Assembly: GCA_947568835.1 (NCBI GenBank)
Contig: OX387605.1
Location: 186,001-250,000, forward strand
Source: Protonemura montana
Lineage: Eukaryota > Arthropoda > Insecta > Plecoptera > Nemouridae
Reading direction: 5' to 3'
Length of the DNA stretch: 64,000 nucleotides
Part shown: positions 11,001 through 41,470 of the stretch, piece by piece
Position numbering within the stretch: the stretch's first letter is position 1
Layout of the letters: each line of letters begins with the position of its first letter
Notes under the pieces: model-generated
Databases searched by the model: none
The model's input: only the letters and a program-made list of their open reading frames with translations
Told to the model about the DNA's origin: nothing
Position numbers and translations under genes: made by a program

Positions 11001-14000
11001 TGCAAGGTGGAGCTGTTGATTTGCTTGACTGTCAGAGTCAACAAACCAGTATTGTCTTGACAACTACAGTCTTAATGAATCACAGGATCGACCCTGCATC
11101 GACTCAGCACGAAGGTCACTGCAAGGTGGAGCTGTTGATTTGCTTGACTGTCAGAGCCAACAAACCAGTATTGTCTTGACAACTACAGTCTTAATGAATC
11201 ACAGGATCGACCCTGCATCGATTCAGCACGAAGGTCACTGCAAGGTGGAGCTGTTGATTTGCTTGACTGTCAGAGCCAACAAACCAGTATTGTCTTGACA
11301 ACTACAGTCTTAATGAATCACAGGATCGACCCTGCATCGACTCAGCACGAAGGTCACTGCAAGGTGGAGCTGTTGATTTGCTTGACTGTCAGAGTCAACA
11401 AACCAGTATTGTCTTGACAACTACAGTCTTAATGAATCACAGGATCGACCCTGCATCGACTCAGCACGAAGGTCACTGCAAGGTGGAGCTGTTGATTTGC
11501 TTGACTGTCAGAGCCAACCAACCAGTATTGTCTTGACAGTCACAATACTTGATGAAGGTTCAAATAGTTGGCATTCTTTTAATTAAATGCTTAATTTAAA
11601 TTGAATTGTTCTGTTTTATGAAATCAGGTTATGGATGGACATCAGTGTCCTATGTACTGGCTAGTTGCAGTGGAGTAAGTGCATTTGGAGCATATTATAT
11701 TAACACAACATATTCCTGACTCATTTTTCAACCCAGAATCTAATGCGTCATTTAAAAGCCTGTTAAAGATCTGTTTTATGCAATTGTTTAAAAATTACAT
11801 TTCTTTTGCTACTCACGAGCCTTATAAATCCAAATAGTTTCTTTTGTTTACGTTATTTACGTTGAGGATGAACTTATGGTTTGCCGGCTCACACGTTTCA
11901 TAAGCAGGCTGTAAGCGTCTTTCAGGAACACTTGAATAACTGGCCACGTACACAATTAAATATTTATCCAACAATTTAAACAATTGCATCAAACTGGAGA
12001 ATTGACCTGATTATATTTCATGTTAATAATTTGTTGGCTACGGTTTCAAGTTTTTTAAGGTTTGTAATTGTCTATTGAACAAATTCACTGAGATTAAAAG
12101 TTCAACAGCACTTAATATTAAACATTACCAGGGTCGAAGTTTGAGTCCCTTTGCGTAATGCAGGGATGGGGCGGTCCTGGATGGGTGAGCCGGATTTTTG
12201 AATCATGGACCGATTCAAGCTGTCGGTCCAAATGGAAACTGCATTTGCTTAAGTCCAGTTGGACCTCCTCATTGTCAGTCTTTGCATCCTCATCTTGCCG
12301 CGTCGAAAGGGCGTCATGCGCAGTCCAAAACCTCTGGCGTCGCGACAATACTTCATTGGCCGATATCACCGGCAGGATACGTGCCTGCGCCGAGCAAGAA
12401 TGCAGAGGTTATGAGATAGAAGAAGGGACCTCAACTCCGGTCTTTCTGTAGAGATCGGGAACTACCGTCACAACCACTTCAGTTTTGCATTTATTTGACA
12501 GCTGAGATGACGAAAAATGTTATATATTTGTAAAGGAGATTTGCAGATTTGCAAAGGGACACGTAACTAGATTTCCCATTCAATAATTTTTGAATGCTTT
12601 AAAGCCAGATTTCAAACAAAAATTGTGATACATTTTGTTCAGCTCATTTTGCTTCAACAAGGTTCTGACTTCAACTGAGCGCCCCTAAAAGAAAAAAAAT
12701 ATCGAAACCCAGAAAACGATTTCATTTATTTCATGTTCAGAGATAAGAACTAAAAACCCAAATTAATATCTTGCTCAGTGGGGATACTCCAAAACAAAAA
12801 CAATGCACATGTATTTTCACTGCGAGACAGAGAGGATCGTGAAAAACCATGAAGGTCTTAGGCTGTTGTATTTCTCATCAAAGTCACAACACGGAGATGT
12901 TCTCACCAAAGTCAATGCCTACCACTCAAACGACAACGAAACTCCTAGATCTAGTTCACTCGTACAACCTCTACCAAACTATCAACACACCGACTCGTAT
13001 CACCCCTACCTCCAGTACTCTCATCGACAACATTTTCACAACCCACCCCGCCAACACCCTACACCCTACCACTTTTGACAGTGGATTATCGGATCATCTA
13101 GCATTAAAAATATCCCTAGATCTCAACTACCCCATTCCAGCCAACTCCACATACATTATAAAACGTAGTTTTTCAAAAAACAACCAACATCGCTTCTCCT
13201 CCCTCCTCAAAGAAGAAACGTGGACAACTATGTACTATGCAGTTGGCACAAACGACATATATAATACATTCATTCACCAATTATCCACACACTTTAACAC
13301 TGCCTTCCCCTTGCGACGAACGAAACAAATTAATTGCTCACCAAACCCCTGGATCACCCCGGAACTCCGACTAGCAGGTGAAAACCTCAGAAATATGCAC
13401 GCCCTCATCCAAGTCTCTCCCAACCCCCTACTTAAATCCCAATATCCAACCCAATTGCAGCACCACACCAAAAATCTTTCCAAAGCAAAAAAAAACTACA
13501 ATGACAATATAATAGCCAAATCCATTAATAAACCCAAAACCTCTTGGAACATCATTAACTCGAGCTCAAAACATAAACGTAAACTTGAAAGCCCTAAAAT
13601 CCTAGTAAATGGAATTGAAATCTCCAACCCATCCAAAGTTGCTGAGGAATTTAATATATTCTTAGCAAATGCTGGAAACACTGCCCCACCAATCCCCATA
13701 ACCACCAATCCACTAACCAACACAACGTCAAAATCCCACCCTCCACCAAAATCCATGTACTTATTTCCCACCACTCCTGAAGAAATCTACAATGCTTCCC
13801 GCACCCTTAGAAACAAACATTCAAGCGGCCTAGATGAAATCTCTGGCGCGCTACTCGCCAACAATATAGAACACCTTACCGACCCGCTAACACACATCAT
13901 TAACAACTCTTTCTCATCCGCCATCTTCCCATCCACACTCAAGCAAGCCCTCATAATCCCTATACACAAAAAAGGCGAAAAATCAAACATCAGCAACTAC

Positions 14001-15687
14001 AGACCAATCTCCCTTCTATCAACACTCTCGAAACTAATAGAAAAAATCATGCTATCCCGACTCAATTCATTCCTCGAAACCCACAACACCATTGCCCAAT
14101 GCCAACATGGCTTCCAAAAAAACAAATCAACAATCACTGCAATCTTCCAGTTCCTCACATCCCTCTACTCTTCCCTTGACAAAGGCGACCAGGCTATGGG
14201 ACTATTCTACGACCTTAGCAAGGCCTTCGACACTATTGACCATAAACTACTTCTTACCAAACTTCACTCCATTGGCATTCGCGGAACCGCAAACAAATGG
14301 ATAGCCTCCTTTCTAACTGATCGCACCCAGACCGTCCGCATCACATCACCTATCCCTGACCATCCCCCATCCCTATCTACACCTTTAATCGTCAAACAAG
14401 GCGTTCCACAGGGATCTGTCCTCTCCGCTCTCCTGTTCCTACTTTATGTAAACGATCTCCCACAGCATATCACCAAAGGCAACCTATTCCAATTCGCCGA
14501 CGACACAAGCCACCTTATAACGACCCCTAAGCATGAACCCATCATCTCCCTAACTCAAATTGCAAACACACAAGCTGCTCTTATATCGACATACTGCCTC
14601 AACAATAAACTAGCCCTTCAACCGACCAAATCCACACTCATAAAATTCTCCACAAAACTAGCTCTGCAATCATCATCCCCCCTCGTCTGAATTAACACAT
14701 TAAGCATCCCGAGCGCCCCCACAACTAAATTTCTAGGCTTACACATCACTGCGACATTAGACTGGGCCCACCATATGCAGATCACCGTCAATAAAATAAA
14801 AAGTGGAAGCCACCTCCTTCGACGCCTGAAACCGCTAGTAAACCCTCACTCCTTAAAATCTGTTTACCACGCTCACATCCACTCCCATCTCTCCTACGGC
14901 CTGCTATTCTGGGGCACATCCCCACACGTTAAACGAATTTTTATAATCCAAAAACAAGCAATCCGAATAATAGCTGGCACATCCCGCCGAAAATCCTGCA
15001 AACCTCACTTCATTAACCAAAAAATCCTCACCCTCACCTGCACTCTAATCCAGATAGCCAGCACCCTTGTCCGATCCCACCCTGATCTCTTCCCCCTCAA
15101 CTCCTCTGCTCACTGCCACGCAACCAGAAGTAGGAATGAAATTCGAACTATTCCCCACTCCCACTCATTCTTCACACACAGTCCACTTTACCTATGCACC
15201 AAAATTTACAACCACCTACCAACACAAATAACAACAGCCTGCAAACGTTCCATCTTTGACTCCAACCTACGCAATTTCCTTATCCAAAACCCCTTCTACT
15301 CCCTAGATGAATACCTATCCCACACGACCAATCCCACATAGAACCCCAGCACTGACACCACTCCCAATGTAAAAACTATTTGAACCTTAATTTTAATTTT
15401 AATCATTATGTCTATATGTCTATAAATCTATATTTTATAGATTTTATAAGATTATAAGACTATAAGATTATTTATAGATTATTTTTATAACTTATGTACA
15501 TAACTATCCTCTCTGACGTAACCTATACATTTACTATGTAACTGTCCTGGGAAAAAAAATAAATACAATACAATACAATACAATACAATACCTTTGAAGG
15601 ACTAGGTGGAGGTACAAGTGGCACCATAACCCCAAAGGGACACCAGTTAGTCTCGTCGTCGTCAGAGTGGTGAGAGTCACTCATCAT
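5020..15687 (-). CDS. Unidentified multi-exon gene, helical protein, 3' part beyond the left edge
   Basis: Function not recognised. I see six minus-strand exons, all phase 0: 15,687-15,592 (ATG, 32 aa, acidic start MMSDSHHSDDDE), 10,179-10,057 (41 aa), 9,495-9,310 (62 aa), 9,118-8,858 (87 aa), 8,425-8,243 (61 aa) and 5,235-5,020 (72 aa). Acceptors are clear pyrimidine-AG sites and donors are GTGAGT, GTAAAC, GTGAGT, GTCTGC and GTGAGT. The shared phase and lack of stops argue for real coding sequence, about 355 aa so far. The peptide is rich in Leu, Ala and Cys and looks all-helical, like an armadillo/HEAT-type repeat protein, with no motif I can name. The second exon could instead begin near 10,199. 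The first exon is the least certain, because its donor GT lies in the tail of an adjacent LINE. Introns hold 119-, 73- and 32-bp arrays. The gene continues off the left edge. Confidence 0.62.
5236..5838. other. Intronic sequence without recognised features
   Basis: AT-rich intron sequence upstream (in minus-strand terms) of the exon ending at 5,235. It supplies that exon's acceptor (CTTCTAAACAG on the minus strand). The short plus-strand open frame at 5,593-5,781 is AT-rich and lacks coding character. Confidence 0.5.
5839..8240. repeat. 73-bp minisatellite (about 33 copies)
   Basis: Tandem 73-bp unit containing ATAACCAAGTTTTAAGATCC and TGCTATGTCAATTGTGTGCAG, with few substitutions. The last unit runs directly into the donor of the minus-strand exon 8,425-8,243. 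The first about 20 intronic bases after that donor match the repeat, so the array seems to have grown from the 5' end of the intron. Confidence 0.96.
9496..10056. other. Intron between two exons of the minus-strand gene
   Basis: No separate gene seen. The interval contains the acceptor of exon 9,495-9,310 (TTTGTTTCAG on the minus strand) and the GTGAGT donor of exon 10,179-10,057. Short open frames at 9,726-9,974 and 9,376-9,594 are antisense or intronic and have no recognisable motif. Confidence 0.45.
10129..11545. repeat. 119-bp minisatellite duplicating an exon 5' end and its acceptor (about 12 copies)
   Basis: The 119-bp unit contains CACAGGATCGACCCTGCATC and GGTGGAGCTGTTGATTTGC. The first copy overlaps the 5' part of the coding exon at 10,179-10,057 (minus), including the acceptor candidates AATCAACAG and CTGACAG. 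The further copies upstream on the minus strand repeat that acceptor and about 50 bp of exon-derived sequence every 119 bp. They are nearly identical to one another, while the exonic copy differs at several bases. Confidence 0.95.
11546..12890. other. Intron sequence before the LINE; no gene recognised
   Basis: Moderately AT-rich sequence in the first intron of the minus-strand gene. A GC-richer patch at about 12,120-12,450 is open in several frames for 70-97 codons, but has no recognisable domain and no consistent splice context. Confidence 0.4.
12849..15341 (+). pseudogene. LINE ORF2-like polyprotein: endonuclease remnant plus reverse transcriptase, one in-frame stop
   Basis: One frame runs for about 830 codons, broken only by a TGA at 14,688-14,690. 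The N-terminal part holds the end of the endonuclease domain (LIDNIF..., then SDHLALK). The reverse transcriptase follows, with NYRPISLLSTLSKLIEK, the AFDTIDHKLLL block, GVPQGSVLSALLFLLYVNDL and the catalytic FADD box near 14,495. After the stop the same frame continues with TKFLGLHIT and a typical C-terminal region to the TAG near 15,340. With a single stop it is a young or recently active copy. The true element start lies inside this frame, so the first residues are probably host sequence. Confidence 0.88.
12895..15591 (+). mobile_element. 5'-truncated non-LTR retrotransposon (Jockey/CR1-like LINE)
   Basis: The element carries the 3' part of an apurinic-type endonuclease domain, a full reverse transcriptase and a C-terminal region, then a 3' UTR ending in a (ACAAT)n tail at about 15,565-15,591. 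The 5' boundary is only estimated (about 12,895), because most of the endonuclease is missing, as expected for target-primed insertion that stopped early. It lies antisense in the first intron of the minus-strand gene. Its tail directly abuts the exon ending at 15,592. I saw no certain target-site duplication. Confidence 0.88.
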
Positions 15688-16060
15688 GTCACTTCAAAAG
15701 AAAACAAAAAAGTCACGAAGCACGAAGTCATGAAGCAATCACGATCACGAACTAATTGAATACTTGGAAAGCGATTGATCACTTCGAATCTACTCCCATG
15801 CTTATACCATAAAATACTGAGGTGGTTACAATGCGACTATTCGCGCGGCTGGATACACGGTTACCGACAAGGACGTTGCCGTATTCGCACGTTCACAATG
15901 AAAGTCAAAACATAGTTTGGAAACTGTTTTACCAACGTTTGAATATCTTCAATTAATAATTATATCATAAGCGACGCATTAACGGTGCTACCTTAAACTT
16001 TATAGATATGTGTAGTTTAAAGTAGAGGTTAATAAAGTAAATTAAAATGCTTTTTGACAT
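15688..16060. promoter_or_regulatory. Probable 5' flank of the minus-strand gene
   Basis: This lies just upstream, on the minus strand, of the proposed first ATG at 15,687. It probably holds the leader and promoter, but I see no clear TATA box or initiator. Assignment is by position only. Confidence 0.3.
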
Positions 16061-16061
16061 C

Positions 16062-16155
16062 TGCCATACCATGTCCGAATTCTTTGGTTAAGTAACATCG
16101 AGCGTGGTCAGTGCTTGGATGGGTGACCTCTTGGGAACACCACTTGCAGTTGTTT
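16062..16155 (+). pseudogene. 5S rRNA-derived sequence (degenerate)
   Basis: The segment reads like a diverged arthropod 5S rRNA: GCCATACCATGTCCGAA, then TTAAGTAACATCGAGCG, then TGCTTGGATGGGTGACC and TTGGGAACACCACTTGCAG. It follows the order of the 5S 5' arm and the internal control region (A box, intermediate element, C box). Substitutions and a shortened middle show that it is a pseudogene or the head of a 5S-derived SINE, not a working gene. Confidence 0.75.
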
Positions 16156-24922: not shown

Positions 24923-26187
24923 ATGGTTGATAGGATGCGTTGCGCTACTGCCCTACTCTTTATCTGAGTTATTTCTTCGGTTTTGGTTAGCTTATTTTTC
25001 CCAATCGTGGGGAAAATAGAGTCGGGGTTTTTAATTTGAGAATAACAAGAAAGTGAATAAACTTCCTAAAATCAGCAGCTTTTTAGTGGCTGTACTGGTT
25101 TAAGTTTTCCGATACGCAGCGATAGTTTGGCCGTGACAAAAATATATACTTCTAATAACACTGGAAATTTGCCTGAGAAAATGCGGTGAGATTAAAAGAT
25201 TAGATTATACTTGTAAAATGCGAGGGTTAATTATTAATAATCCCAGTTTCAGTTATTTTCAATCAAATTTGGCGCAAGTTGTCATATTTAATTTCCTCCC
25301 ATATAAAGAATAGTATGCGGTCCCTTGGATCTTAAATCTATCAAACTTTCTCAATCTGAAGAACATCTGAAGTCCTTGATCTGTAGTCACTGCAATGTGA
25401 CTATCTCTGCAAACTGAGTTTGATGAAGCTATCTTTCAGCTGTCCCAGGACGCATATGAGACTGAAATATTTGCGTTCTCGTCATGTGGAGAAAGCTTCA
25501 ATTTCCCGACACGGAGAAATAATGAATAATCCAACTCCTCGCAAACATTACCCGGACATCGTTGTTGCCCGTACGAAACATTTCCTTGTTGACTTACTTC
25601 GTTGTCTTTTCCTTCTTGTACTGAGTCAAAACAAAGCTTTTCTGTCAGCCACTATAAAACAAAATCAAAAACAGGGCTTGGCTGTTCACCTGCACTCGAT
25701 GTCGCGTATTTTCAACAGAGTTGACTATTTGCTGACAGAAAAAAAAAGACAAGCAGCTGTTTCAGTAAAGAGAAGCTTTCCCGGGACAAATTAAATTCGT
25801 AAAAACTAATACAAATGTACTATGACATATTAATAAATACAATAAAATAAATACAAGAAAAGTGTGTACACACGAACAAACTCACCTTTTTAGAAAACAA
25901 TGCCAGTGCTCATCTCTTCCTCCTTCATCCCAGCCGAACATTGCCAAAAGAACACTTCGAAAGCACAACGTTTGTTCTGTAAACTTTTTGTATACATCAT
26001 TTTCGTTGTGGTATGTTAATAAAGTTTTCGGAGGAAATCTGACCAAGCAATTCTAGGTTAGAGTTCCACCAAAGATCACCATTTACTAGCTAACGTAGAA
26101 TCGAAGAATAAGGATACGGCTTTATTTTGTGAGAGACTTGTTTAACTTTGCTTTGCGTGTGTAGTGGTTTAATTCTTTGAAATCTCA
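24923..26187. other. Spacer/5' flank of LIG3; no recognised gene
   Basis: A 124-codon open frame at 25,420-25,794 has no recognisable domain and starts at a non-ATG codon. Another frame over the same stretch is open to a TAA near 25,526. I see no splice context for either. The last few hundred bases probably carry the LIG3 promoter and leader. An in-frame TAA at 26,170-26,172 fixes the LIG3 start downstream of it. Confidence 0.4.
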
Positions 26188-29100
26188 ATGAGCGAAGTTG
26201 AAGCGGCGTTCTGTGCAGACCTGGCGCCGACCAACCGCGCCAGCTGCAAGAAATGCAAGCAGAAACTCGACAAAGGTTCTCTGAGGCTGGCAAAGCTGGC
26301 AGCTAACCCTTTTGGTGATGGCACGATGAAGATGTGGCATCACGTTGGTTGCCTATTTGATGTATTCAAGAAGCAGCGTGCAACAACGGCACGGATAAAC
26401 AGCCCTGATGACATTGGCGGCTGGAACGAGCTCTCTGATGGGGACAAGGAAGAGATTCTAAAGTATTTACCCGACGACGTCGCTGCTGAAGCTAGAACTC
26501 GTGAGTCACAACCCACGACAGCAAATAATACTAAAAAGTCACCTAAGAAAGGTAGCAGCAAAGGTGCTGGCTCTTCCAACAATACAGGTGACTCAAACGA
26601 GTCCTTAGATGTATTAAAGGAACACAAAGATAATTCCTTCAGAGAGTTTCGCAGACTTTGTGCAGATATGAGCAATGAAAGCAGCTACACTGGCAAGACA
26701 GCATTGATAAAAGAACTTTTTGACAAGGGCTCTGATGAAACGGGCTTTAAGGTAAGTGCAAATAGTATTTGTAGTAGAATCTTGAAGTGGTCTATCAAGA
26801 GGTCGACTGAATGAGGTGTATGTACATGGCAGGGCGACGTGGGTCTATGGTGCCGCCTGCTACTTCCCGGCGCCGTCAAGCGCGTCTATAACCTGCAGTC
26901 GCGTCAACTGTGCAAGCTGCTGGCTCGCGTGCTGCGTGTTGACCCCGCCCCCATGTTGGTAGACCTGGAGCAGGGAGACGTGGCCGAGACGGTTCGCAAC
27001 GCATTCGAGGGCTCGCAGCTCGTGCCACCGGCGGCAAAGTCACGGCTGACGCTCCTCGACGTCGACAAGTTCCTAACCGCTCTCGCTAAACTCACACGAG
27101 AGGATGACCAGGCGCAGCACTTTCAGGTGGGCGGAGCTTGCATAGCCAGCGTCGTGGGGCTTTTTAATTATTATGAACACTAAAATTGTCTAAAAAATTG
27201 ATGCAGAAATGGGGACTCGAACCTCGATCTTCACCTATCACAGGTGTTGCTCTAACCCATTGAGCTACTTGGACCCTGGCTTTTTGAGAAGATTTTAGTG
27301 TATTTGATGAGAATGACGGATCTCCAAGGAGTAGAACCAAGAGGCTGTGAATACTCACAGTCACTCTGATTCTAGTGACGCTATATCACGTCACAACCTG
27401 TCAATCTCAAGTAACTACAATTTGACGTTGGATGCGTTGTTTTTTTTGTTGAAATCTTATTTAAATTGCAAACGCTTGCAATGCGCAGGGTATTTTATTA
27501 TTATGAACACTATAACCGTCTCAAAAATTGATGCCCATAACAAACTCTAGTGGCTTAACTGTCTCTAATTTCTTGTTCAGGACGTAGTTACACGATGCAC
27601 GAGCAACGACCTCAAGATGCTGGTGCGATTGATAAAGCACGACCTGCGCATCAACGCGGGACCCAAACACGTCCTGGCAGCAGTACATTCATCAGCCTAC
27701 CAAGCATTCCAGGTAAGTTACCAGTACATTCATCAGCCTACCAAGCATTCCAGGTAAGTTACCAGTACATTCATCAGCCTACCAAGCATTCCAGGTAAGT
27801 TACCAGTACATTCATCAGCCTACCAAGCATTCCAGGTAAGTTACCAGTACATTCATCAGCATACCAAGCATTCCAGGTAAGTTACCAGTACATTCATCAG
27901 CATACCAAGCATTCCAGGTAAGTTACCAGTACATTCATCAGCATACCAAGCATTCCAGGTAAGTTACCAGTACATTCATCAGCATACCAAGCATTCCAGG
28001 TAAGTTACCAGCACTAATATACCATAACTTGCAACTGACAGCACCAGCACTAATATACCATAACTTGCAACTGACAGCACCAGCACTAATATACCATAAC
28101 TTGCAACTGACAGCACCAGCACTAATATACCATAACTTGCAACTGACAGCACCAGCACTAATATACCATAACTTGCAACTGACAGCACCAGCACTAATAT
28201 ACCATAACTTGCAACTGACAGCACCAGCACTAATATACCATAACTTGCAACTGACAGCACCAGCACTAATATACCATAACTTGCAACTGACAGCACCAGC
28301 ACTAATATACCATAACTTGCAACTGACAGCACCAGCACTAATATACCATAACTTGCAACTGACAGCACCAGTACTACTATATCATAACTTGCAACTGACA
28401 GCACCAGCACTAATATACCATAACTTGCAACTGACAGCACCAGCACTAATATACCATAACTTGCAACTGACAGCACCAGCACTAATATACCATAACTTGC
28501 AACTGACAGCACCAGCACTAATATACCATAACTTGCAACTGACAGCACCAGCACTAATATACCATAACTTGCAACTGACAGCACCAGTACTAATATATCA
28601 TAACTTGCAACTGACAGCACCAGCACTAATATACCATAACTTGCAACTGACAGCACCAGCACTAATATACCATAACTTGCAACTGACAGCACCAGCACTA
28701 ATATATCATAACTTGCAACTGACAGCACCAGCACTAATATACCATAACTTGCAACTGACAGCACCAGCACTAATATACCATAACTTGCAACTGACAGCAC
28801 CAGCACTAATATATCATAACTTGCAACTGACAGCACCAGCACTAATATACCATAACTTGCAACTGACAGCACCAGCACTAATATAACATAACTTGCAACT
28901 GACAGCACCAGCACTAATATACCATAACTTGCAACTGACAGCACCAGCACTAATATACCATAACTTGCAACTGACAGCACCAGCACTAATATACCATAAC
29001 TTGCAACTGACAGCACCAGCACTAATATACCATAACTTGCAACTGACAGCACCAGCACTAATATACCATAACTTGCAACTGACAGCACCAGCACTAATAT

Positions 29101-31828
29101 ACCATAACTTGCAACTGACAGCACCAGCACTAATATACCATAACTTGCAACTGACAGCACCAGCACTAATATACCATAACTTGCAACTGACAGCACCAGC
29201 ACTAATATACCATAACTTGCAACTGACAGCACCAGCACTAATATATCATAACTTGCAACTGACAGCACCAGCACTAATATACCATTACCATAGGCGTGCG
29301 CAGGGGGGGGGGGGGGGGCGAGCGGGGGCCTTGGCCCCCTCAAATTAATCTACGACGATCCCCTTTTCCAATACATATATTATTATTTAGCAGTAAAATT
29401 GCCATTTCGAGCCTCAAGAGAAATATTCCTGTGATTTGTTAGTGTGAATATAAAAACAATTGATTCTAAAATAAATACAGATTGAATTTACTTTTAGAAC
29501 ATGGAGGCAAATTGCCTGCGCGTCTGATCTTGTTTGGTCTTGAGAAAAACTATTTGAACTGGGTTTTGAATGCTAAGTAAAGGGCTACTAAATTTCCCGA
29601 CGTTTCGTAACATATACTAGTTACTTCTTCAGAGGTTTGAGCAGTCCTGAAAGAAAAAACCCAGAAATCTCTGAAGAAGTATAAATGTATAAATCTGTAT
29701 AAATCAAGTAGACATGAGTCTTAAAACCATCATTGTTTGGTCTTGCTTTGCAGACTTCCAGAGACATTGACGCGGTGCTCTCTCGGTACCGCGGAGCTGC
29801 AACGATCGCGGGGGCAGAGCCAGCGCTGGCTCTGATGACACCCGTGCAGCCAATGCTGGCTGCGCCGTGCCGTGCCGCGCAGGACGCGCTGGCTAAATGT
29901 CCGCGCGGTCTCTGCGCTGAAGTCAAGTACGATGGAGAGCGCGTGCAGGTGAGCTTAGCTTGGCTCAATCCACCGTCAAACCCTGCCATTCCTTGCCCTG
30001 CTATTTTATTTTGCATATTAATGGGTTCTTCATAATATCCTGTCATTGGCTTCCTTCAACGTTGGGTATCCAAATGTTCGCAGGTGCACAAGCGCGGTGC
30101 AGACTTCCGTTACTTTTCCCGGTCTTTAAAGCCGGTGCTAGCGCACAAAGTGGCTCACTTCTCCTCGTGGCTTCCTGCCGCGTTCCCTGCCGCCACGGAT
30201 TTGGTACTGGACGCCGAGGTGCTAATGGTTGATACTCGCACGGGGCTTCCACTGCCCTTCGGTACGCTCGGCAAGCACAAGCAAGCTGCGTTCGCAGACG
30301 CTAACGTGTGTCTCTTCATCTTCGACTGTCTCCTGCTCAATGGTGAGTTTCTTGGCTTTTATCAATTAAATAAGTCATCATTTCTGGACTAGGTACTTCA
30401 GTAAATATCAAAAAGATTTGTTGTTTTGAGATGAAATCTTATTTAAATTGCAAACGCTTGCAATGCGCGGGGTATTTCATAATTTTGAACACTATAACCG
30501 TCTCAAAAATTGATACCCAAACATGGCCTCAAACCCCGATTTCCACCTGTCGCGGGTGTTGCTCTAAGTAGCTCAATTGGTTAGAGCAACACCCGCGACA
30601 GGTAGAGATCGGGGTTCGTGTCCCCGTTTGGGCATCAATTTATGAGACGGTTATAGTGTTAAAATATGGTAAAACAAAGTTGACCTATTATACCTAAAAA
30701 AACGTCTGAAACCTCCACGTAGGTATAATACCTACGTATAATACATGTTTTAGGCTTTACGTGTATTACCTCCCCAACCCTGATCACTGGTGTATCTGAC
30801 GGGAAGGGGTGGGGTACGTACGGAACGTAAGTTGGCAACACAGCTATGTTGGTCAAGTCAACATGAATCGAACATAAACCCTCATTCTTGCCACTTGGAA
30901 ACCTAACATCGTCACTTAAACGAGAACGTCATAGACAATGCAGTGTGAAGGTCTACAATATCAATGCAGTGTGAAGGTCTACAATATCAATGCAGTGTGA
31001 AGGTCTACAATATCAATGCAGTGTGAAGGTCTACAATATCAATGCAGTGTGAAGGTCTACAATATCAATGCAGTGTGAAGGTCTACAATATCAATGCAGT
31101 GTGAAGGTCTACAATATCAATGCAGTGTGAAGGTCTACAATATCAATGCAGTGTGAAGGTCTACAATATCAATCCAGTGTGAAGGTCTACAATATCAATG
31201 CAGTGTGAAGGTCTACAATATCAATGCAGTGTGAAGGTCTACAATATCAATGCAGTGTGAAGGTCTACAATATCAATGCAGTGTGAAGGTCTACAATATC
31301 AATGCAGTGTGAAGGTCTACAATATCAATGCAGTGTGAAGGTCTACAATATCAATGCAGTGTGAAGGTCTACAATATCAATGCAGTGTGAAGGTCTACAA
31401 TATCAATGCAGTGTGAAGGTCTACAATATCAATGCAGTGTGAAGGTCTACAATATCAATGCAGTGTGAAGGTCTACAATATCAATGCAGTGTGAAGGTCT
31501 ACAATATCAATGCAGTGTGAAGGTCTACAATATCAATGCAGTGTGAAGGTCTACAATATCAATGCAGTGTGAAGGTCTACAATATCAATGCAGTGTGAAG
31601 GTCTACAATATCAATGCAGTGTGAAGGTCTACAATATCAATGCAGTGTGAAGGTCTACAATATCAATGCAGTGTGAAGGTCTACAATATCAATGCAGTGT
31701 GAAGGTCTACAATATTTTTTATTGTATTTGCACTTTTATTGTAAATGTGAAATTAACCAAACTTTGTACATTTTTTTTGTGTATGACTTATTTATATCCA
31801 TCTGAACAATTGAATATTAAATCAACCA

Positions 31829-31879
<51 letters not shown>

Positions 31880-34800
31880 CTCTGTTCTGCTGATCTCTCC
31901 ACCTTGGCAGGTCAGGTCAGGTCAGGTCAGGTCAGGTTAGGTTAGGTCAGGTCAGGTCAGGTCAGGTCAGGTTAGGTCAGGTCAGGTCAGGTCAGGTTAG
32001 GTTATGTTAGGTCAGGTCAAGTTAGGTTAGGTCAGGTCAGGTCAGGTCAGGTTAGGTTAGGTCAGGTCAGGTCAGGTCAGGTTAGGTTAGGTCAGGTCAG
32101 GTCAGGTCAGGTCAGGTTAGGTTAGGTCAGGTTAGGTTAGGTTAGATTAGGTCAGGTCAGGTTAGGTCTGGTCAGGTCAGGTTAGGTTTGGTTAGGTCAG
32201 GTTAGGTCAGGTCATGATAGGTCAGGTCAGGTCTGGTTAGGTCAGGTTAGGTTAGGTCAGGTCAGGTCTGGTTAGGTCTGGTCAGGTTAGGTTAGGTTAG
32301 GTTAGGTTAGGTTAGGTCTGGTCAGGTTAGGTTAGGTTAGGTCTGGTCAGGTCAGGTTAGGTTAGGTCAGGTTAGGTTAGGTCAGGTCAGGTTAGGTCAG
32401 GTCAGGTTAGGTCAGGTTAGGTTAGGTTAGGTCTGAGTGTTACGTGGAGGCTTCATTTGCAGCTGAATTGTTAGCGATGTTGCCAAGTCTTGTCTCTTGC
32501 TGCAGGAGATTCACTTCTTGATCGACCGCTCAGCGAGCGTCGTGCACTTTTGACAGCCAACCTGACGCAAGTCCCCAACCGAGTGGTACTCTCAGAACTA
32601 CACGAGGTGAGTTACTAACTGCCTCTGTTAACTCTAACTGCCTCTGTTAACTCTAATTGACTCTGTTAACTCTAACTGCCTCTGTTAACTCTTACTGCCT
32701 CTGTTAACTCTAACTGCCTCTGTTAACTCTAATTGCCTCTGTTAACTCTAACTGCCTCTTTTAACTCTAACTGCCTCTGTTAACTCTAACTGCCTCTGTT
32801 AACTCTAACTGCCTATGTTAACTCTAATTGCCTCTGTTAACTCTAACTGCCTCTGTTAACTCTAATTGCCTCTGTTAACTCTAACTGCCTCTGTTAACTC
32901 TAACTGCCTCTGTTAACTCTAATTGCCTCTGTTAACTCTAACTGCCTCTGTTAACTCTAACTGCCTCTGTTAACTCTAACTGCCTCTGTTAACTCTAACT
33001 CCCTCTGTTAACTCTAACTGCCTCTGTTAACTCTAACTGCCTCTTTTAACTCTAACTGCCTCTGTTAACTCTAACTGCCTCTGTTAACTCTAACTGCCTC
33101 TGTTAACTCTAATTGCCTCTGTTAACTCTAACTGCCTCTGTTAACTCTTACTGCCTCTGTTAACTCTAACTGCCTCTGTTAACTCTAATTGCCTCTGTTA
33201 ACTCTAACTGCCTCTGTTAACTCTAATTGCCTCTGTTAACTCTAACTGCCTCTGTTAACTCTAACTGCCTCTGTTAACTCTAACTGCCTCTGTTAACTCT
33301 AACTCTCTCTGTTAACTCTAACTGCCTCTGTTAACTCTAACTGCCCCTGTTAACTCTTAATGCCTCTGTTAACTCTAACTGCCTCTGTTAACTCTTACTG
33401 CCTCTGTTAACTCTAACTCCCTCTGTTAACTCTAACTGCCTTTGTTAACTCTAACTGCCTCTGTTAACTCTAACTGCCTCTGTTAATTCTAACTGGCTTT
33501 GTTAATTCTTATTGAAAATGTTTTTTTAAGAAAATCAAAAAACACTTTGAAAGATAATTGGTGTGAGAAGAAAAAAGAAAAAAGGGCTGTGGTATGGTGT
33601 TTTTTTCTTAGAAACGAAATTTATGTTTTCTGAGAAAACATTTCAATACCTTTCAAGTAAAATGTTTTTCATTAATCTACCTAAACTACAGCCGACGCAA
33701 TGTAAGAAAGAATAGCGGCGTGTACTCTACCCTACCGGGCTAACTATTTGACTCGGAGGCAAACATAAAATATGTCAACAATAGGAATGATGTAATCGTC
33801 ATTGTTCCAAGTTTCATGGTTTTTTGGTTGGTTGATTTGACATGGAATGACCCGGCCATAGGTTACCTTGCTCAATATCAGAGTCCTAATAAATTACACT
33901 GAAACATAATGTTTGCATGTATAACAAAAACTATTTCAACTGGGTTTTCAATGCTAAGTGAAGAACAACTAAATTCCCCGTTTCGTTTCGTAACTTGTAC
34001 CTGTTACTTTATCAAGGGTTAAAGCAGTCCTGACAATTTTCCAATAACAAAAGAACCACACAAAATTATAACAATTACCAATTTCAAGCTTCCTAAATGC
34101 ATCTAAACAAAATAATCAGGGTCAATAACTGAAAACCATACATTTTGTATTAGTGAAATAAAATCCCAAACAAATTGGTGTTTTCTACTAACTAGCCAAT
34201 TATGTTTTTGGTTAGTTCGTAAAAACGCTAACTAATAGTTAAACAATTTTGTGTGGTTCTTTTGTTATTGGAAAATTGTCAGGACTGCTCTTACCCTTGA
34301 TAAAGTAACAGGTACAAGTTACAAAACGTTGGGAAATTTAGTTGTCCTTCACTTAGCATTGAAAACCCAGTTGAAATAGTTTTTGTTAAAACTAGTGGTA
34401 AGTTTACATCAAGTAGACATGAGTCTAAAAACAATCATACATTTGCATATAGTTTTCTTCTGAGTGTTTATAGGTAAAGTCTGATTTCACAGATTAGCAT
34501 TGCAGTAATTGCGTGTGTTGGCAGATCATCACAGTTGCCAGCCTGGAGACGCTGATCACGAGGGTGCTACGTCAGGGACTTGAAGGGCTCGTGCTCAAAG
34601 ATCCCGAGGGTACTTACAAGCCCGGAGCCAGACACTGGCTCAAGGTGAAGCGAGACTATCTGATGGGCGGAGCCATGGCAGATAGCGTGGACCTCCTCGT
34701 GTTGGGAGCTTGGTTTGGTAAGATGTGAGATGCATCCACTATGTTTCCCGATCTAACAAGTGGCCCCCCTCGAGGGGTGAAGGTGTTTGCATGACCCAAT

Positions 34801-37800
34801 GACCCGGGAGGCCATGCCGGAGGGGAGGTTCCACTCCCCAACAAGGTCTGCTAGACCTGAAAGGCTCCCAGTGAGACCCAGACCAAGACTAGCCCACCCT
34901 GTCGCTGTCAAGGTCTGCTATACCTGACAGGCTCCCAGTGAGACCCAGACCAAGACTAGCCCACCCCGTCGCTGTCAAGGTCTGCTATACCTGACAGGTT
35001 CCCAGTGAGACCCAGACCAGGACTAGCCCACCCCGTCACTGTCAAGGTCTGCTATACCTGACAGGCTCCCAGTGAGACCCAGACCAAGACTAGCCCACCC
35101 CGTCGCTGTCAAGGTCTGCTATACCTGACAGGCTCCCAGTGAGACCCAGACCAAGACTAGCCCACCCCGTCGCTGTCAAGATCTGCTATACCTGACAGGC
35201 TCCCAGTGAGACCCAGACCAAGACTAGCCCACCCCGTCGCTGTCAAGGTCTGCTATACCTGACAGGCTCCCAGTGAGACCCAGACCAAGACTAGCCCACC
35301 CCGTCGCTGTCAAGGTCTGCTATACCTGACAGGCTCCCAGTGAGACCCTGACCAGGACTAGCCCACCCCGTCGCTGTCAAGGTCTGCTATACCTGACAGG
35401 CTCCCAGTGAGACCCAGACCAAGACTAGCCCACCCCGTCGCTGTCAAGGTCTGCTATACCTGACAGGCTCCCAGTGAGACCTAGACCAAGACTAGCCCAC
35501 CCCGTCACTGTCAAGGTCTGCTATACCTGACAGGCTCCCAGTGAGACCCAGACCAGGACTAGCCCACCCCGTCACTGTCAAGGTCTGCTATACCTGACAG
35601 GCTCCCAGTGAGACCCAGACCAGGACTAGCCCACCCCGTCGCTGTCAAGGTCTGCTATACCTGACAGGCTCCCAGTGAGACCCAGACCAAGACTAGCCCA
35701 CCCCATCGCTGTCAAGGTCTGCTATACCTGACAGGCTCCCAGTGAGACCCAGACCAAGACTAGCCCACCCCGTCGCTATCAAGGTCTGCTATACCTGACA
35801 GGCTTCCAGTGAGACCCAGACCAAGACTAGCCCACCCCGTCGCTGTCAAGGTCTGCTATACCTGACAGGCTCCCAGTGAGACCCAGACCAAGACTAGCCC
35901 ACCCCGTCGCTGTCAAGGTCTGCTATACCTGACAGGCTTCCAGTGAGACCCAGACCAAGACTAGCCCACCCCGTCGCTGTCAAGGTCTGCTATACCTGAC
36001 AGGCTCCCAGTGAGACCCAGACCAAGACTAGCCCACCCCGTCACTGTCAAGGTCTGCTATATCTGACAGGCTCCCAGTGAGACCCAGACCAAGACTAGCC
36101 CACCCCGTCGCTGTCAAGGTCTGATATACCTGACAGGCTCCCAGTGAGACCCAGACCAAGACTAGCCCACCCCATCGCTGTCAAGGTCTGCTATACCCAG
36201 TGATGTATTGGTCAATGCACGCGGGTGTACGCAGTCCACCCACTATTCATTTTATTTTTGGCCGTACCCCCACTTTGAATTTTTGAGGGAACGCAGGTGA
36301 ACGCACGGGAAAGCAGTATTAAATTATGATTATTCGGAATATCCTGCACTTCTTTATTTTCAAGGCGAAAATATCCCAGTTAAGGGTTTTATTTCTAATA
36401 ATCCACTTACTTAAAAATAGACCTAGCAAGATTGCCACTGTATGCGAACGTACTAAGAGTAGGTAGGCTGGAATTATGTCGGCGTCGCGACTTGCAACAA
36501 AGGGGTAAGTTAGAACCATATTACTGTTATCACGTAGGGAAGTCGGTAGCCGCTTTCGCGGCGTCGCACGGCGGTGCAAGCTCTCAGAAGCAAGCCCGCT
36601 TCAAATAATAAGAATTCGCAGGAAAGACAACAATACAAACAATAACCAAATTGCCACATACGAGCCACACTGGACGAATTAGTTCAATTCAAGATACAGA
36701 AGAGAAAACGTCGAATGAAGAAGAGTTCAATGAAAAAGAGTCATTGTGGAAACTGATGTAATCTCCTCAACGCGAAAGTACGCGCGTATCTATGGATAGT
36801 TTCAACAAAAATTTAAATCAGTATTCGATTAAAATGATTGACTTTCTTTTACCAGATTCCCGAATCCCTACCAAATTTGAAGACTGCAACAATGTGGGAA
36901 GGTGTAGACATGAGAGGGCGGCATTAATTTAATTTTCTCAAAATCATTACGTAATTAAAAATGCAGTTCTGACCATGTCATTCCAAGCCCAATTTCATCG
37001 TAAACTCGTAGATTGGCTCCAAAAGAAACCTTAGAATAAAAATTCACTTGGAGCTGCGCCCGAAGCCCCCTATTTTCCACTCTTTCGGTGCATTCGCCTT
37101 GGGTCTCCTCCTCCCCCCCCCCCCCCCCCCCCCCCCCCGACACAAAAAAATGGGTCATTTTTGCGTACCCCCACTAAACATTTTACGAATACATCACTGG
37201 CTATACCTGACAGGCTCCCAGTGAGACCCAGACCAAGACTAGCCCACCCCATCGCTGTCAAGGTCTGCTATACCTGACAGGCTCCCAGTGAGACCCAGAC
37301 CAAGACTAGCCCACCCCGTCGCTGTCAAGGTCTGCTATACCTGACAGGTTCCCAGTGAGCTCCAGACCAAGACTAGCCCACCCCGTCGCTGTCAAGGTCT
37401 GCTATACCTGACAGGCTCCCAGTGAGACCCAGACCAAGACTAGCCCACCCCGTCGCTGTCAAGGTCTGCTATACCTGACAGGCTCCCAGTGAGACCCAGA
37501 CCAAGACTAGCCCACCCCGTCGCTGTCAAGGTCTGCTATACCTGACAGGCTCCCAGTGAGACCCAGACCAAGACTAGCCCACCCCGTCGCTGTCAAGGTC
37601 TGCTATACCTGACAGGCTCTCGGCGAGGATCCAGACCAAGAATAGTTCCGCCACCTCGCTGTTGCACGAGGCGGACTTTGGTCTGTGCGCTCTTTTTTAT
37701 CTTAACCTTCTTTTACCTTCTTAATTAATAATTACCAAAGGCAAATGAAGAAAAGAATGTGCATATTTTGGTCATGAAGGAGATTTATAAAACAATTTTG

Positions 37801-40489
37801 TTGCAGCATCAACGCTGTGCAAAATTTGAAATTGTGAATTTGTTGATATTGTGACGGTCGTGGATGGTACTCACCGTTCTTGGCTCGTGTTGCTCGATCT
37901 TGCTTGGTCTAAGAGTAAGGTACCCGTTCACTTAGCGATACAGGCATCTGCAAGTGCCTAAACAACCTCTTTGCATTTATTGCGGGACAATTTGCTAGAC
38001 TACAAACACGTACATTCAAGTCTAGTGATGATCAAAACAATAACGCTGAAACAAAGCCTTGGAAAAATAAGTTGCCTATCTGCAGGAACCGGTGCCAAGG
38101 GTGGGATGATGTCTTCGTTCCTGATGGGTGTCAGAGCTGCTGACGGGTGGCGGACTGTGACCAAGGTGCATGGAGGACTTGATGATGCCGCGCTTACGGC
38201 GCTGCAGTCAACGCTGTCCATGGAACGTATCGCCCGCGACCCAGCTCGCTGTCCATCCTGGCTGGTATCATCACGCTCGATGGTGCCAGACCTGGTCGCC
38301 AAAGACCCACACGACATGCCCGTCTGGGAGGTGACTGAACCTGCTTTTTTAGATTAAATCTTATTTAAATTGCAAACGCTTACATGGCGCGCATATTTTG
38401 TTATTATTAACACAATAACCATCAAATTTCAAGTAGCTCAGTTGGTTAGAGCAACACCCGCGACAGGTGGAGATCGGGGTCCAAGTAGCTCAATTGGTTA
38501 GAGCAACACCCGTGACAGGTGGAGATCGGGGTCCAAGTAGCTCAATTGGTTAGAGCAACACCCGCGACAGGTGGAGATCGGGGTCCAAGTAGCTCAGTTG
38601 GTTAGAGCAACACCCGCGACAGGTGGAGATCGGGGTCCAAGTAGCTCAATTGGTTAGAGCAACACCCGCGACAGGTGGAGATTGGGGTCCAAGTAGCTCA
38701 ATTGGTTAGAGCAATACCTGCGACAGGTGGAGATCGGGGTCCAAGAAGCTCAATTGGTTAGAGCAACAACTGCGACAGGTGGAGATCAGGGTTCAAGTAG
38801 CTCAATTGGTTAGAGCAATACCTGCGACAGGTGGAGATCGGGGTCCAAGTAGCTCAATTGGTTAGAGCAACACCTGCAACAGGTCTCTACTGGAAGTGAG
38901 AGTTAGCAACGTCTTGTCTTGCTTTAGATAACAGGTGCTGAGTTCACGCAGCACGAGGTACACACGGCCGACGGGATCTCAATCCGCTTCCCGCGAGTGA
39001 CTCGAGTCCGTCATGACAAGGACTACGCCACCGCGACTTCACTGGCCGAGCTGAGGAACATCTTCACTGCTTCAAGAAACACTGCAAACTTTGTGCTGAC
39101 TTCCTCGGAGGTGAGGCGACCCGTTTCCATGACTACCATGACACATATGATGTTCACACTTTGCTTCATTGAGGTTTACAGATAACATCTGCAGGAAATT
39201 AATTATTTTACTGTTGTACCGATATTGTAAGCGGTTAAAGAGGATGTCATCGTAGATTAATTAACAACAGGAACTTAAAGCTCTAATTAGATTTAGTGAT
39301 AACTTTACAGGCCACATTATCTTAGAAAACATGTATTTTACCAGGTGATTTTACCAGGTGCTGGCTCCTCCCACCAGGTGTTGGCTCCTCCCACCAGGTG
39401 CTGGCTCCTCCCACCATGTGTTGGCTCCTCCCACCAGGTGCTGGCTCCTCCCACAAGGTGCTGGCTCCTCCCACCAGGTGCTAGCTACTCCCACTAGGTG
39501 CTGTCTTCTCCCACCAGGTGCTAGCTACTCCCACCAGGTGCTGGCTCCTCCCACCAGGTGCTAGCTACTCCCACCAGGTGCTGGCTCCTCCCACCAGGTG
39601 TTGGCTCCTCCCACCAGGTGCTAGCTACTTCCAGCAGGTGCTGGCTCCTCCCACCAGGTGCTGGCTCCTCCCACCAGGTGTCAGGAGAACATTGTGGTTG
39701 ATTGTTGTTGCAAACAAAAGGTTTATGTCTCTATTATTTGTATTGCAGCCAAATTCTGAGAACAAGATCACTCCCAGGAAGAATAACAAGATCACTCCCA
39801 GGAAGAATGTTGCTGGTGAAGACAGCTCTGATACAGACGTCCAAGAAGAAGTAACTCCTAAAAAGAAGCTAAAACTAGAACTGACGCCTAAAAAGAATGG
39901 GACGCCTAAAAAGAATGGGACGCCTAAATCGGCTACAAAAAAAGAATCCTCAAACTCTAAACTAAATGTGAAAGTTGTTCGAAAAGCAACAGAGAAGGAA
40001 GAACTTATCACAAAAAACATACGATTAAAAGAAACTGTCGAATTAAAGGTAAAAGCTGATTCTGACTCTGATTCTGATTCAAAGAAAGAAGCAGTCTTGA
40101 TAAAGACAGAGAAGTTTGACACCACTCCTCAAAAGAAGGGAAAGCTGGAAGCAAAGCCTAGCAAGCTGTCAGTTCGATCTGTGCGCGAAATGCCCACGCG
40201 ACCGTTGCCCACGCGACCGTTGCCTTCCTTTCTACGCGGCGTTGCAGTGGTTCTCCCGCCAGGCGGGCAGCACCTCCACCGCCACCTGGTGGCGTCGGGA
40301 GGCGTGGCACTGCCCACCTCCGATGCCCACCGCAGCTCACACGTGGTACACGCAGGTGGGCAGTCCGTGGCGGGCACCAGCTGGCCAACTGATGCCCGCC
40401 ACGTCTGCCTTGATTGGCTCAGCGACTGCATAAAGCTTCAAGCGCGGCAGCCAGAACGCAAGTACGCGGCATTCGTACAACACAACTGA
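26188..40489 (+). CDS. LIG3: DNA ligase 3 (ATP-dependent), ten exons, complete
   Basis: LIG3 seals nicks in single-strand-break/base-excision repair and alternative end joining, usually with XRCC1. Exons: 26,188-26,751; 26,833-27,126; 27,581-27,712; 29,754-29,948; 30,084-30,342; 32,506-32,606; 34,525-34,717; 38,086-38,330; 38,928-39,110; 39,749-40,489. All phases fit, giving 968 aa, close to vertebrate LIG3. Residues about 1-95 form a PARP-type zinc finger (C20, C23, H52, C55). About 189-330 is the helical DNA-binding domain. The adenylation domain has the catalytic lysine K388 in KYDGER, with EGLVLKD (535-541) and WLKVKRDY (553-560) as motifs IV and V. Exons 8-9 give the OB fold, ending in the TADGISIRFPR block. 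Exon 10 has a Lys-rich TPKK linker and a C-terminal BRCT domain with the conserved Trp in CLDWLSDC. The TAA at 26,170 excludes a longer first exon, so no mitochondrial leader is visible; one could come from an unseen upstream exon. Confidence 0.95.
27165..27290 (-). mobile_element. tRNA-derived SINE (partial) in LIG3 intron 2
   Basis: On the minus strand it has AAGTAGCTCAATGGGTTAGAG (pol III A-box-like), then AGGTTCGAGTCCCC (B-box-like), then the family body GATGCATCAA..., shared with copies at 30.5 and 42.2 kb. The T-loop and D-loop sequences show tRNA ancestry. Confidence 0.72.
27451..27545 (-). mobile_element. 3' body fragment of the same SINE family
   Basis: It matches the non-tRNA part of the family: GAAATCTTATTTAAATTGC, AAACGCTTGCAATGCGC, then GAACACTATAACCGTCTC and AAAAATTGATGCCC. 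The tRNA head is missing. Confidence 0.7.
27682..28012 (+). repeat. 41-bp array duplicating LIG3 exon 3 end plus splice donor (8 copies)
   Basis: Each 41-bp unit holds the last 30 bp of exon 3 (encoding the end ...HSSAYQAFQ) followed by CAG|GTAAGTTAC. Donor GT positions are 27,713, 27,754, 27,795, 27,836, 27,877, 27,918, 27,959 and 28,000. The first gives the model's reading frame. The later ones would add 41 nt per unit, shifting the frame except at multiples of three units. Confidence 0.95.
28009..29287. repeat. 36-bp minisatellite in LIG3 intron 3 (about 35 copies)
   Basis: The unit is CAACTGACAGCACCAGCACT plus AATATACCATAACTTG. Because 36 is a multiple of 3, all its frames stay open: a hydrophobic 12-residue repeat (LVLSVASYGILV) on the minus strand and LQLTAPALIYHN on the plus strand. 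It follows the 41-bp donor array without a gap, sharing the GTAAGTTACCAGCAC junction. Confidence 0.97.
29288..29345. repeat. Poly-G tract and GC-rich possible transposon terminus
   Basis: TAGGCGTGCGCAG is followed by a G run of about 17 and a GC-rich segment ending GGCCCCCTCAAATTA. It resembles the ends of invertebrate DNA transposons, but I found no partner end. Confidence 0.4.
29546..29733. mobile_element. Partial/diverged copy of the foldback element seen at 33.9-34.4 kb
   Basis: It shares AACTATTTGAACTGGGTTTT, AATGCTAAGT, AAATTTCCCGACGTTTCGTAA and, at the other end, ATCAAGTAGACATGAGTCT with the 33.9-34.4 kb element. On the minus strand it carries CTGAAGA, a GTAAC/GTTAC hairpin and GAAAC (about 29,599-29,632). 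Confidence 0.6.
30430..30663. mobile_element. Head-to-head pair of tRNA-derived SINE copies (palindrome) in LIG3 intron 5
   Basis: The left half is a minus-strand SINE (body GAAATCTTATTTAAATTGC, then the tRNA-like head reversed). The right half is a plus-strand head (AAGTAGCTCAATTGGTTAGAG, then GGGGTTCGTGTCCCC) and part of the body (GAGACGGTTATAGTGTT). The heads meet at about 30,573 and form a near-perfect inverted repeat. Confidence 0.75.
30935..31714. repeat. 26-bp minisatellite (about 30 copies)
   Basis: Unit TGCAGTGTGAAGGTCTACAA plus TATCAA, nearly invariant, in LIG3 intron 5. Confidence 0.97.
31829..31879. repeat. (ATT)n microsatellite
   Basis: About 17 ATT triplets just before the telomere-like tract. 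Confidence 0.95.
31909..32436. repeat. Interstitial telomere-like array of TTAGG and TCAGG pentamers
   Basis: About 105 pentamers, almost all GGTCA or GGTTA (the TCAGG and TTAGG permutations), with a few GGTCT, GGTTT and GGTTG-type variants. TTAGG is the ancestral arthropod telomere repeat and TCAGG replaces it in some beetles. Here both are interspersed in LIG3 intron 5, about 70 bp from the acceptor of exon 6. Confidence 0.9.
32607..33510. repeat. 19-bp minisatellite (about 46 copies) in LIG3 intron 6
   Basis: Unit TAACTGCCTCTGTTAACTC with C/T, A/T and G/T variants. It starts within about 9 bp of the exon 6 donor (GTGAGTTAC). Confidence 0.96.
33919..34390. mobile_element. Foldback/MITE-like element with about 160-bp inverted arms
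   Basis: The left arm begins ACAAAAACTATTTCAACTGG and the right arm ends with its reverse complement CCAGTTGAAATAGTTTTTGT. The arms also share the TTAGCATTGAAAACCC and GGTACAAGTTAC segments and AACAATTTTGTGTGGTTC near the centre. TA flanks on both sides would fit a TA target duplication. No transposase is encoded. Confidence 0.75.
34830..37617. repeat. 67-bp minisatellite in LIG3 intron 7 (about 26 copies), split by a transposon
   Basis: The unit contains CGCTGTCAAGGTCTGCTATA, then CCTGACAGGCTCCCAGTGAG, then ACCCAGACCAAGACTAGCCC. The array is interrupted at 36,198-37,199 by an inserted hAT-like element and resumes in register after it. Edge units are diverged. Confidence 0.96.
36198..37199. 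mobile_element. Non-autonomous hAT-like DNA transposon, 1,002 bp, with 8-bp target duplication
   Basis: The ends are CAGTGATGTATT and AATACATCACTG, an inverted pair. The element is flanked by an exact 8-bp direct duplication, GCTATACC (36,190-36,197 and 37,200-37,207). The undisrupted 67-bp unit has this 8-mer once, so the empty site can be read from neighbouring repeats. Both subterminal regions carry CGTACCCCCACT. There is an internal C run of about 28 near 37,111-37,138. I recognise no intact transposase; an 86-codon minus-strand open frame at 36,319-36,579 may be a remnant. Confidence 0.9.
38347..38429 (-). mobile_element. SINE body fragment at the start of the tRNA-like array
   Basis: AAATCTTATTTAAATTGC, AAACGCTTACATGGCGC and AACACAATAACC are diverged family body sequence, leading straight into the tRNA-head tandem array. 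Confidence 0.65.
38430..38895 (+). repeat. 52-bp tandem array of a tRNA-like SINE head (9 copies)
   Basis: Each unit is CAAGTAGCTCAATTGGTTAG, AGCAACACCCGCGACAGGTG, GAGATCGGGGTC. This is the D-arm/A-box and anticodon-arm half of the tRNA-derived SINE head, cut just before the full B box. It lies in LIG3 intron 8, ending about 30 bp before the exon 9 acceptor. It is not a tRNA gene cluster, because no unit has a complete T arm and acceptor stem. Confidence 0.85.
39343..39690. repeat. 20-bp minisatellite (about 17 copies) in LIG3 intron 9
   Basis: Unit CCACCAGGTGCTGGCTCCTC with variants GTTGG, GCTAGCTAC and GCTGTCTTC. Each unit contains an E-box-like CAGGTG, which also looks like CAG|GTG donor sequence. 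Confidence 0.94.
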
Positions 40490-40658: not shown

Positions 40659-40779
40659 CATCATAGAAGTTTGCAGCAGATTTAAATTTCAATGACAATT
40701 TTTCATGTCTTGTCTCAAATCTGACATATGTCACTTTTACTCCATCTTCTTTGTCAGGGTTATTAAATAACCTAACCGA

Positions 40780-41470
40780 ACAGTTTGGCGTGTTGGACAC
40801 ACTGGTCATCGTTAGATCACCGAAGTTAAGCAACACTGCACTGGGTCAGGTACTGGATGGGTGACCATCATTCACATGACCAGTTCTGTTCGGGAGAGAG
40901 GTTGGAGGGATGAAAGTTAAGCAACACTGCACTGGGTCAGGTACTGGATGGGTGACCATCATTTACATGACCAGTTCTGTTCAGGAGAGAGGTTGGAGGG
41001 ATGAATGTTAAGCAACACTGCGCTGGGTCAGGTATTGGATGGGTGACCATCACACACATGACTAGTTCTGTTCGGGAGAGAGGTTGGAGGGATGAATGTT
41101 AAGCAACACTGCGCTGGGTCAGGTACTGGATGGGTGACCATCATTCACATGACCAGTTCTGTTCGGGAGAGAGGTTGGAGGGATGAATGTTAAGCAACAC
41201 TGCACTGGGTCAGGTACTGGATGGGTGACCATCATTCACATGACCAGTTCTGTTCAGGAGAGAGGTTGGAGGGATGAATGTTAAGCAACACTGCGCTGGG
41301 TCAGGTATGGTATGGGTGACCATCATTCACATGACCAGTTCTGTTCGGGAGATAGGTTGGAGGGATGAAAGTTAAGCAACACTGCGCTGGGTCTGGTATT
41401 GGATGGGTGACCATCATACACATGACCAGTTCTGTTCGGGTGAGAGGTTGGAGGGATGAAAGTTAGTACA
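40780..41470 (+). repeat. 91-bp tandem array derived from 5S rRNA (7 copies)
   Basis: The first unit keeps a longer 5S-like stretch (ACACACTGGTCATCGTTAGATC, split by substitutions, then ACCGAAGTTAAGCAACACTG). All units have GTTAAGCAACACTGC, GGGTCAGG and TACTGGATGGGTGACCATC, matching the 5S internal control region (A box, intermediate element, C box). The period is 91 bp. They are shorter than 5S and lack its 3' arm, so they are derivatives, not rRNA genes. Confidence 0.82.

Follow-up and report, generated by a model that had tools for sequence, protein, structure and literature searches.

Tandem arrays that repeat an exon-intron boundary have been described in amphioxus under the name 'mirages'. 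Copies of this kind occur in Adh3, in the globin genes BflGb6 and BflGb9, in TnC and in PGBD5 (PMC3087553, PMC3902484). In the available text of these two papers, the authors report that the arrays vary in length and that RT-PCR suggests undisturbed splicing; the splice sites of the PGBD5 mirage are predicted, mostly without cDNA support (PMC3902484). Other links between tandem repeats and splicing come from human and nematode genes. In human UBC, according to the available text of PMC10809524, tandem AGGT sites act as both donors and acceptors and are spliced to a ladder. In duplicated human genes, variable tandem repeats that lie at exon-intron boundaries can alter splicing (available text of PMC2812944), and splicing together with intronic minisatellites in C. 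elegans is the topic of PMC4039745, as its available text presents it. No insect boundary array of the mirage type was recognised in a literature search for insect cases, within the available text of the sources, which is no proof of absence.

The array considered here lies in the LIG3 gene of the insect Protonemura montana, in a window of 64 kb (the whole stretch of DNA that was analysed, whose positions are used throughout). It has a period of 41 bp and spans the boundary between a coding exon and the intron that follows it (27681..28011, plus strand). TRF assigns it 8.1 copies with 99% match, and eight copies are seen when the units are printed in register; the eightfold tandem repetition of a LIG3 exon end with its donor, as put forward in the preliminary description, is confirmed. 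The unit is composed of the final 32 bp of the exon (27681-27712), not the 30 bp given previously, followed by the initial 9 bp of the intron. In the in-register print, copies 1-4 are mutually identical, copies 5-8 likewise, and the two blocks differ by a single base (GCC/GCA), which in copy 1 is a synonymous change at the third position of a codon. An AGGT stands at each unit boundary. Copy 1 is the sole copy joined to the remainder of the exon. On its downstream side the array is adjoined by an intronic array of 36-bp period and 35.5 copies (28007..29285, plus strand; TRF).

Each of the eight copies carries the sequence CAGGTAAGT, that is, CAG/GTAAGT, so that the eight donors are identical and match the full consensus, as expected from the earlier claim of eight equivalent strong donors. 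Exact pattern matching places donor 1 at 27710..27718 and donors 2-8 at 41-bp steps within 27751..28005, all on the plus strand; the last exon-side bases of donors 2-8 are 27753, 27794, 27835, 27876, 27917, 27958 and 27999. The eight exact matches to CAGGTAAGT in the 64-kb window all fall within the array, and the minus strand of the window contains none. Among the eight LIG3 donors that were placed, all but that of the fifth exon, donor 1 is the best, matching the consensus at 9 of 9 positions. Five others score 8, 7, 6, 6 and 6 of 9, and two further donors score 6 and 7 of 9 by eye.

On its ordered domains and structural matches, the gene that carries the array is LIG3, as had been proposed. 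Specifically, the recognised frames span 26173..40486 on the plus strand and encode these Pfam domains in this order: zf-PARP, the N-terminal domain of DNA ligases, the catalytic domain (in three pieces), the C-terminal domain (in two pieces, the second with E 0.022, under the Pfam cut-off) and a LIG3-type BRCT domain. The best PDB match of the zinc finger is likewise a DNA ligase III. Exon 2 ends at 27126 (by eye). The third recognised coding exon, which contributes the unit, occupies 27581..27712 (plus strand; acceptor ttcttgttcag/), comprises 44 codons with phase 0 at both ends and translates as DVVTRC...SAYQAFQ. The next coding exon (29754..29948, plus strand; end by eye) matches Pfam DNA_ligase_A_M. 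Its acceptor, cttgctttgcag/, ends at 29753; that position, formerly given as the acceptor, holds the G of the AG, and the exon begins one base further on. When donor 1 is joined to 29754, the 196-residue translation aligns to human DNA ligase 3 (PDB 3l2p) with E 1.1e-74 and with no gap at the junction, which argues that the array adds no coding insertion.

The eight donors differ in the reading frames that they yield. By translation, joining donor 1 to 29754 gives an uninterrupted ligase frame. With donor 2, the extra 41 nt put the downstream exon out of frame and translation would end at a stop within it; transcripts from donors 3-8 would all contain a TAA formed where copies adjoin. Because 41 is not a multiple of 3, removal of a single unit breaks the frame. 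The additions made by donors 4 and 7 (123 and 246 nt) preserve the phase, but the in-frame TAA comes first. The statement that only the first donor keeps the ligase frame thus holds in the sense that donor 1 is the sole ligase-yielding donor, and needs correction in that donors 4 and 7 are also in phase after the TAA.

We favour, with a probability of about 0.75, a recent minisatellite expansion over the LIG3 exon-intron boundary, with donor 1 used in productive mRNA and the other copies removed with the intron. A 41-bp segment (32 bp of exon and 9 bp of intron) would have been tandemly duplicated and then expanded to eight copies; one variant site, arranged in two four-copy blocks, points to recent expansion or homogenisation. 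Productive LIG3 mRNA probably uses donor 1, and the seven remaining copies would be intronic passengers that leave with the intron. We infer this use of donor 1 from the conservation of the protein and from the amphioxus precedent. Transcripts from donors 2-8, with their early stops, would probably be lost by nonsense-mediated decay. The least certain step is how donor 1 wins, most likely because it is transcribed first and because no other donor adjoins a complete exon (exon definition); this mode of choice is favoured because neither the sequence nor the predicted pairing in the full array singles donor 1 out. Among competing strong donors in vitro, the one nearer the acceptor is often favoured. 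Such a rule of thumb predicts donor 8, the opposite of donor 1, which makes the LIG3 locus a useful test.

RNA structure was considered as a selector of the donor and was not accepted, since donor 1 is not singled out in the full array at the larger folding window. Specifically, at a folding window of 200 the predicted openness of donor 1 in the full array is 0.00012, compared with 0.000094 to 0.00022 for the other donors, and in a single-copy context donor 1 is equally closed (0.00011, same folding window). At a folding window of 150, on the same stretch, the openness of donor 1 exceeds that of the other donors 2.6- to 7-fold. The array as a whole folds better than letter shuffles (z -8.5; none of 100 shuffles as good). 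Of 300 arrays assembled from shuffled units, 26 fold as well as the real array; when all of the unit except the donor was shuffled, the donors reached at least the real level of pairing in only 2 of 300 arrays. When transcript growth is simulated, the openness of donor 1 falls by a factor of about 3 to 20 once copy 2 has emerged. The predicted openness of donor 1 in short transcripts fits first-come choice, although each newest donor is likewise more open.

The array lies in an array-rich setting. Tandem arrays with a period of at least 9 make up about 42% of the 64-kb window, which occupies kilobases 186-250 of contig C3 (27.2 Mb), and LIG3 intron 3 is about 77% array. When the nine main arrays were placed at random in LIG3, at least one of 17 junctions was struck in 35% of trials; several of the 17 junction positions may be off by as much as 22 bases, and the ends of exons 2 and 4 were set one base low, with small effect. 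Given such a gene and such a frequency of random overlap, a boundary-spanning array is unsurprising and no special targeting is needed. Array content was further sampled in 16 stretches of 10 kb, all in the low-coordinate halves of contigs. On C3 it is 40% at 1 bp, 85% at 0.1 Mb and 28% at 1 Mb; elsewhere it is 22% on C1 and 79% on C15 at 1 Mb, 9% on C5 at 1 bp, and 6% on C2 and 40% on C4 at 2 Mb. Within 2 Mb of a contig start, six of eight stretches have at least 22%; at 3 Mb or deeper, six of eight have 0%, the other two being C2 at 6 Mb (6%) and C12 at 3 Mb (13%). No telomere repeat array was found in the two contig starts sampled. The LIG3 window probably lies near a chromosome end.

Several further elements were seen in LIG3 and its surroundings. 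A further LIG3 exon was recognised at 32506-32606. In another LIG3 intron (32606-33509), a 19-bp array of 47 copies begins 9 bp past the donor GAG/GTGAGT, nearly at the boundary. An array of a CAGGT-like pentamer in a LIG3 intron (31908-32433; about 105 copies, 86% match) holds many copies with a minimal AG/GT. LIG3 introns also contain a tRNA-Ser-like element (30560-30636), which follows a SINE-like stretch, and a tRNA-like tandem array of 52-bp period (38430-38884), which follows a similar one, the likeness of the two SINE-like stretches being judged by eye. 5S rRNA-like sequences (Rfam) are present at 40775-40895 and 16056-16155. A 91-bp tandem array at 40823-41465 has a unit that overlaps the 5S-like sequence; 91-bp periods also occur in the sampled stretches L002, L005, L012, L014 and L016. 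An open frame of 615 aa at 12843-14687 contains a reverse transcriptase domain.

A search of the 258.5-Mb assembly (34 contigs) with the array and its exon returned one place, by a type of search that is not exhaustive for repeats. Three copies of CAGGTAAGT at 20-50 bp spacing occur in the LIG3 array only (6 overlapping hits, same assembly). The strict donor pattern gave 6 hits against 8 (6 + 2) in a read-backwards control, a count with no excess, and a loose pattern gave 111 against 62; these figures are overlapping hits rather than arrays, and no enrichment is claimed. Among the matches listed, the loose pattern marks at least 13 places besides LIG3 (grouped by eye). One flank was inspected at nine of them, which leaves aside a simple repeat at 7.8 Mb of C1 and three places with the L032 unit, on C13, C15 and C16. 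At six of the nine inspected arrays the first donor stands at the end of an exon-like open frame, and the exon-end bases common to the unit number 8 in L025, 4 in L026, 28 in L027, 15 in L028, 10 in L030 and 8 in L031. The share of 4 bases in L026 is weak, two of the four being fixed by the search pattern. The frame at L025 matches RFX (Pfam E 1.5e-4, a little under the curated cut-off), that at L027 matches JHBP, a mainly arthropod family whose presence hints at an arthropod genome (Pfam E 2.3e-6, 27.4 bits against a cut-off of 29.2), and that at L030 has a weak match to DHX29 (Pfam E 0.0097). No Pfam family was found for L026, L028 and L031, and L024, L029 and L032 do not start clearly at an exon end.

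Because a donor-like pattern is expected to pick real donors, the proportion of six in nine indicates recurrence, not enrichment. The LIG3 array is less singular than the preliminary description implied, since six of nine other donor-bearing arrays inspected share its layout, two of these six being backed by a protein family, and the amphioxus cases are in print. LIG3 is the cleanest boundary array among those inspected and is not a lone case.

The AG/GT in every array copy raises the question of whether the sites are dual-specific, each CAG/GT serving as donor or acceptor. Units kept through use of a late donor would then be excised from donor 1 to a later AG, restoring the donor-1 mRNA. By arithmetic, an excision that starts at the copy-1 GT and ends with the AG of copy k does restore the ligase frame, and the available text of PMC10809524 offers both the ladder to which the human UBC tandem array is spliced and an enrichment of DSS-spliced introns in tandem-repeat genes. 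We nevertheless consider such a dual role unlikely in LIG3. The candidate acceptor, ...CTACCAAGCATTCCAG/, shows by eye a mixed tract and a close upstream AG, in contrast to that of the next exon, and excision of one 41-nt unit loses the frame, unlike in UBC. A fuller form of the same idea, in which U1 could settle on any of the eight donors, kept units would be excised between donor 1 and a later CAG/ and LIG3 mRNA would be reached by many routes, is quite doubtful. If it were true, boundary minisatellites would be tolerated in the genome through repair of their own splicing errors.

Premature stops from seven of the eight donors could instead serve a regulated switch between isoforms, whereby donor choice tunes the level of LIG3 and sends donor 2-8 transcripts to decay. 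We regard regulation of this kind as very improbable: the near-identical copies and the array-rich setting fit a neutral recent expansion, and the same layout is found at unrelated exons in other arrays of the genome. That recurrence also tells against an artefact, namely a copy number inflated in the assembly of a low-copy repeat. The array measures only 331 bp and contains two distinct variant blocks, and the assembly consists of 34 contigs, several of them longer than 20 Mb; an assembly error is accordingly the explanation that we find hardest to credit.

The locus offers a natural setting in which to study competition between identical donors in a DNA-repair gene. Eight letter-identical, full-consensus donors placed 41 nt apart remove site strength as a variable, which leaves the choice between them to position and exon context alone. 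Together with the other boundary arrays of the genome, the LIG3 array would form a natural series for tests of donor choice, with differing units, copy numbers and exon shares.

Judged from its sequence, the LIG3 array is best read as a mirage-type boundary minisatellite, a kind already in print from amphioxus. As far as the available text of the amphioxus papers goes, both the mirages and the LIG3 array are minisatellite-like and place repeated AG/GT beside an authentic boundary. Specifically, the LIG3 array spans a real boundary and carries AG/GT in eight of eight copies, and arrays of this layout recur at several genes. With 41 bp, its unit compares with 10-72 bp in amphioxus Adh3 and 150-160 bp in the amphioxus globin genes, in the lengths given in that text. 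The LIG3 array differs from the amphioxus mirages in its eight nearly perfect copies of a donor that matches the consensus at 9 of 9 positions, and it is known here from one sequence. As described in the available text on UBC, AGGT stands at each unit boundary there as in LIG3, but the UBC units are 228 nt long and frame-neutral, whereas those of LIG3 are 41 nt long and frame-shifting, with an acceptor role that is hypothetical. The repeats of human duplicated genes, in the available text of PMC2812944, form novel introns, whereas the LIG3 repeat lengthens the start of an intron. The comparison suggests that arrays of the mirage type also exist outside the amphioxus cases of the cited papers.
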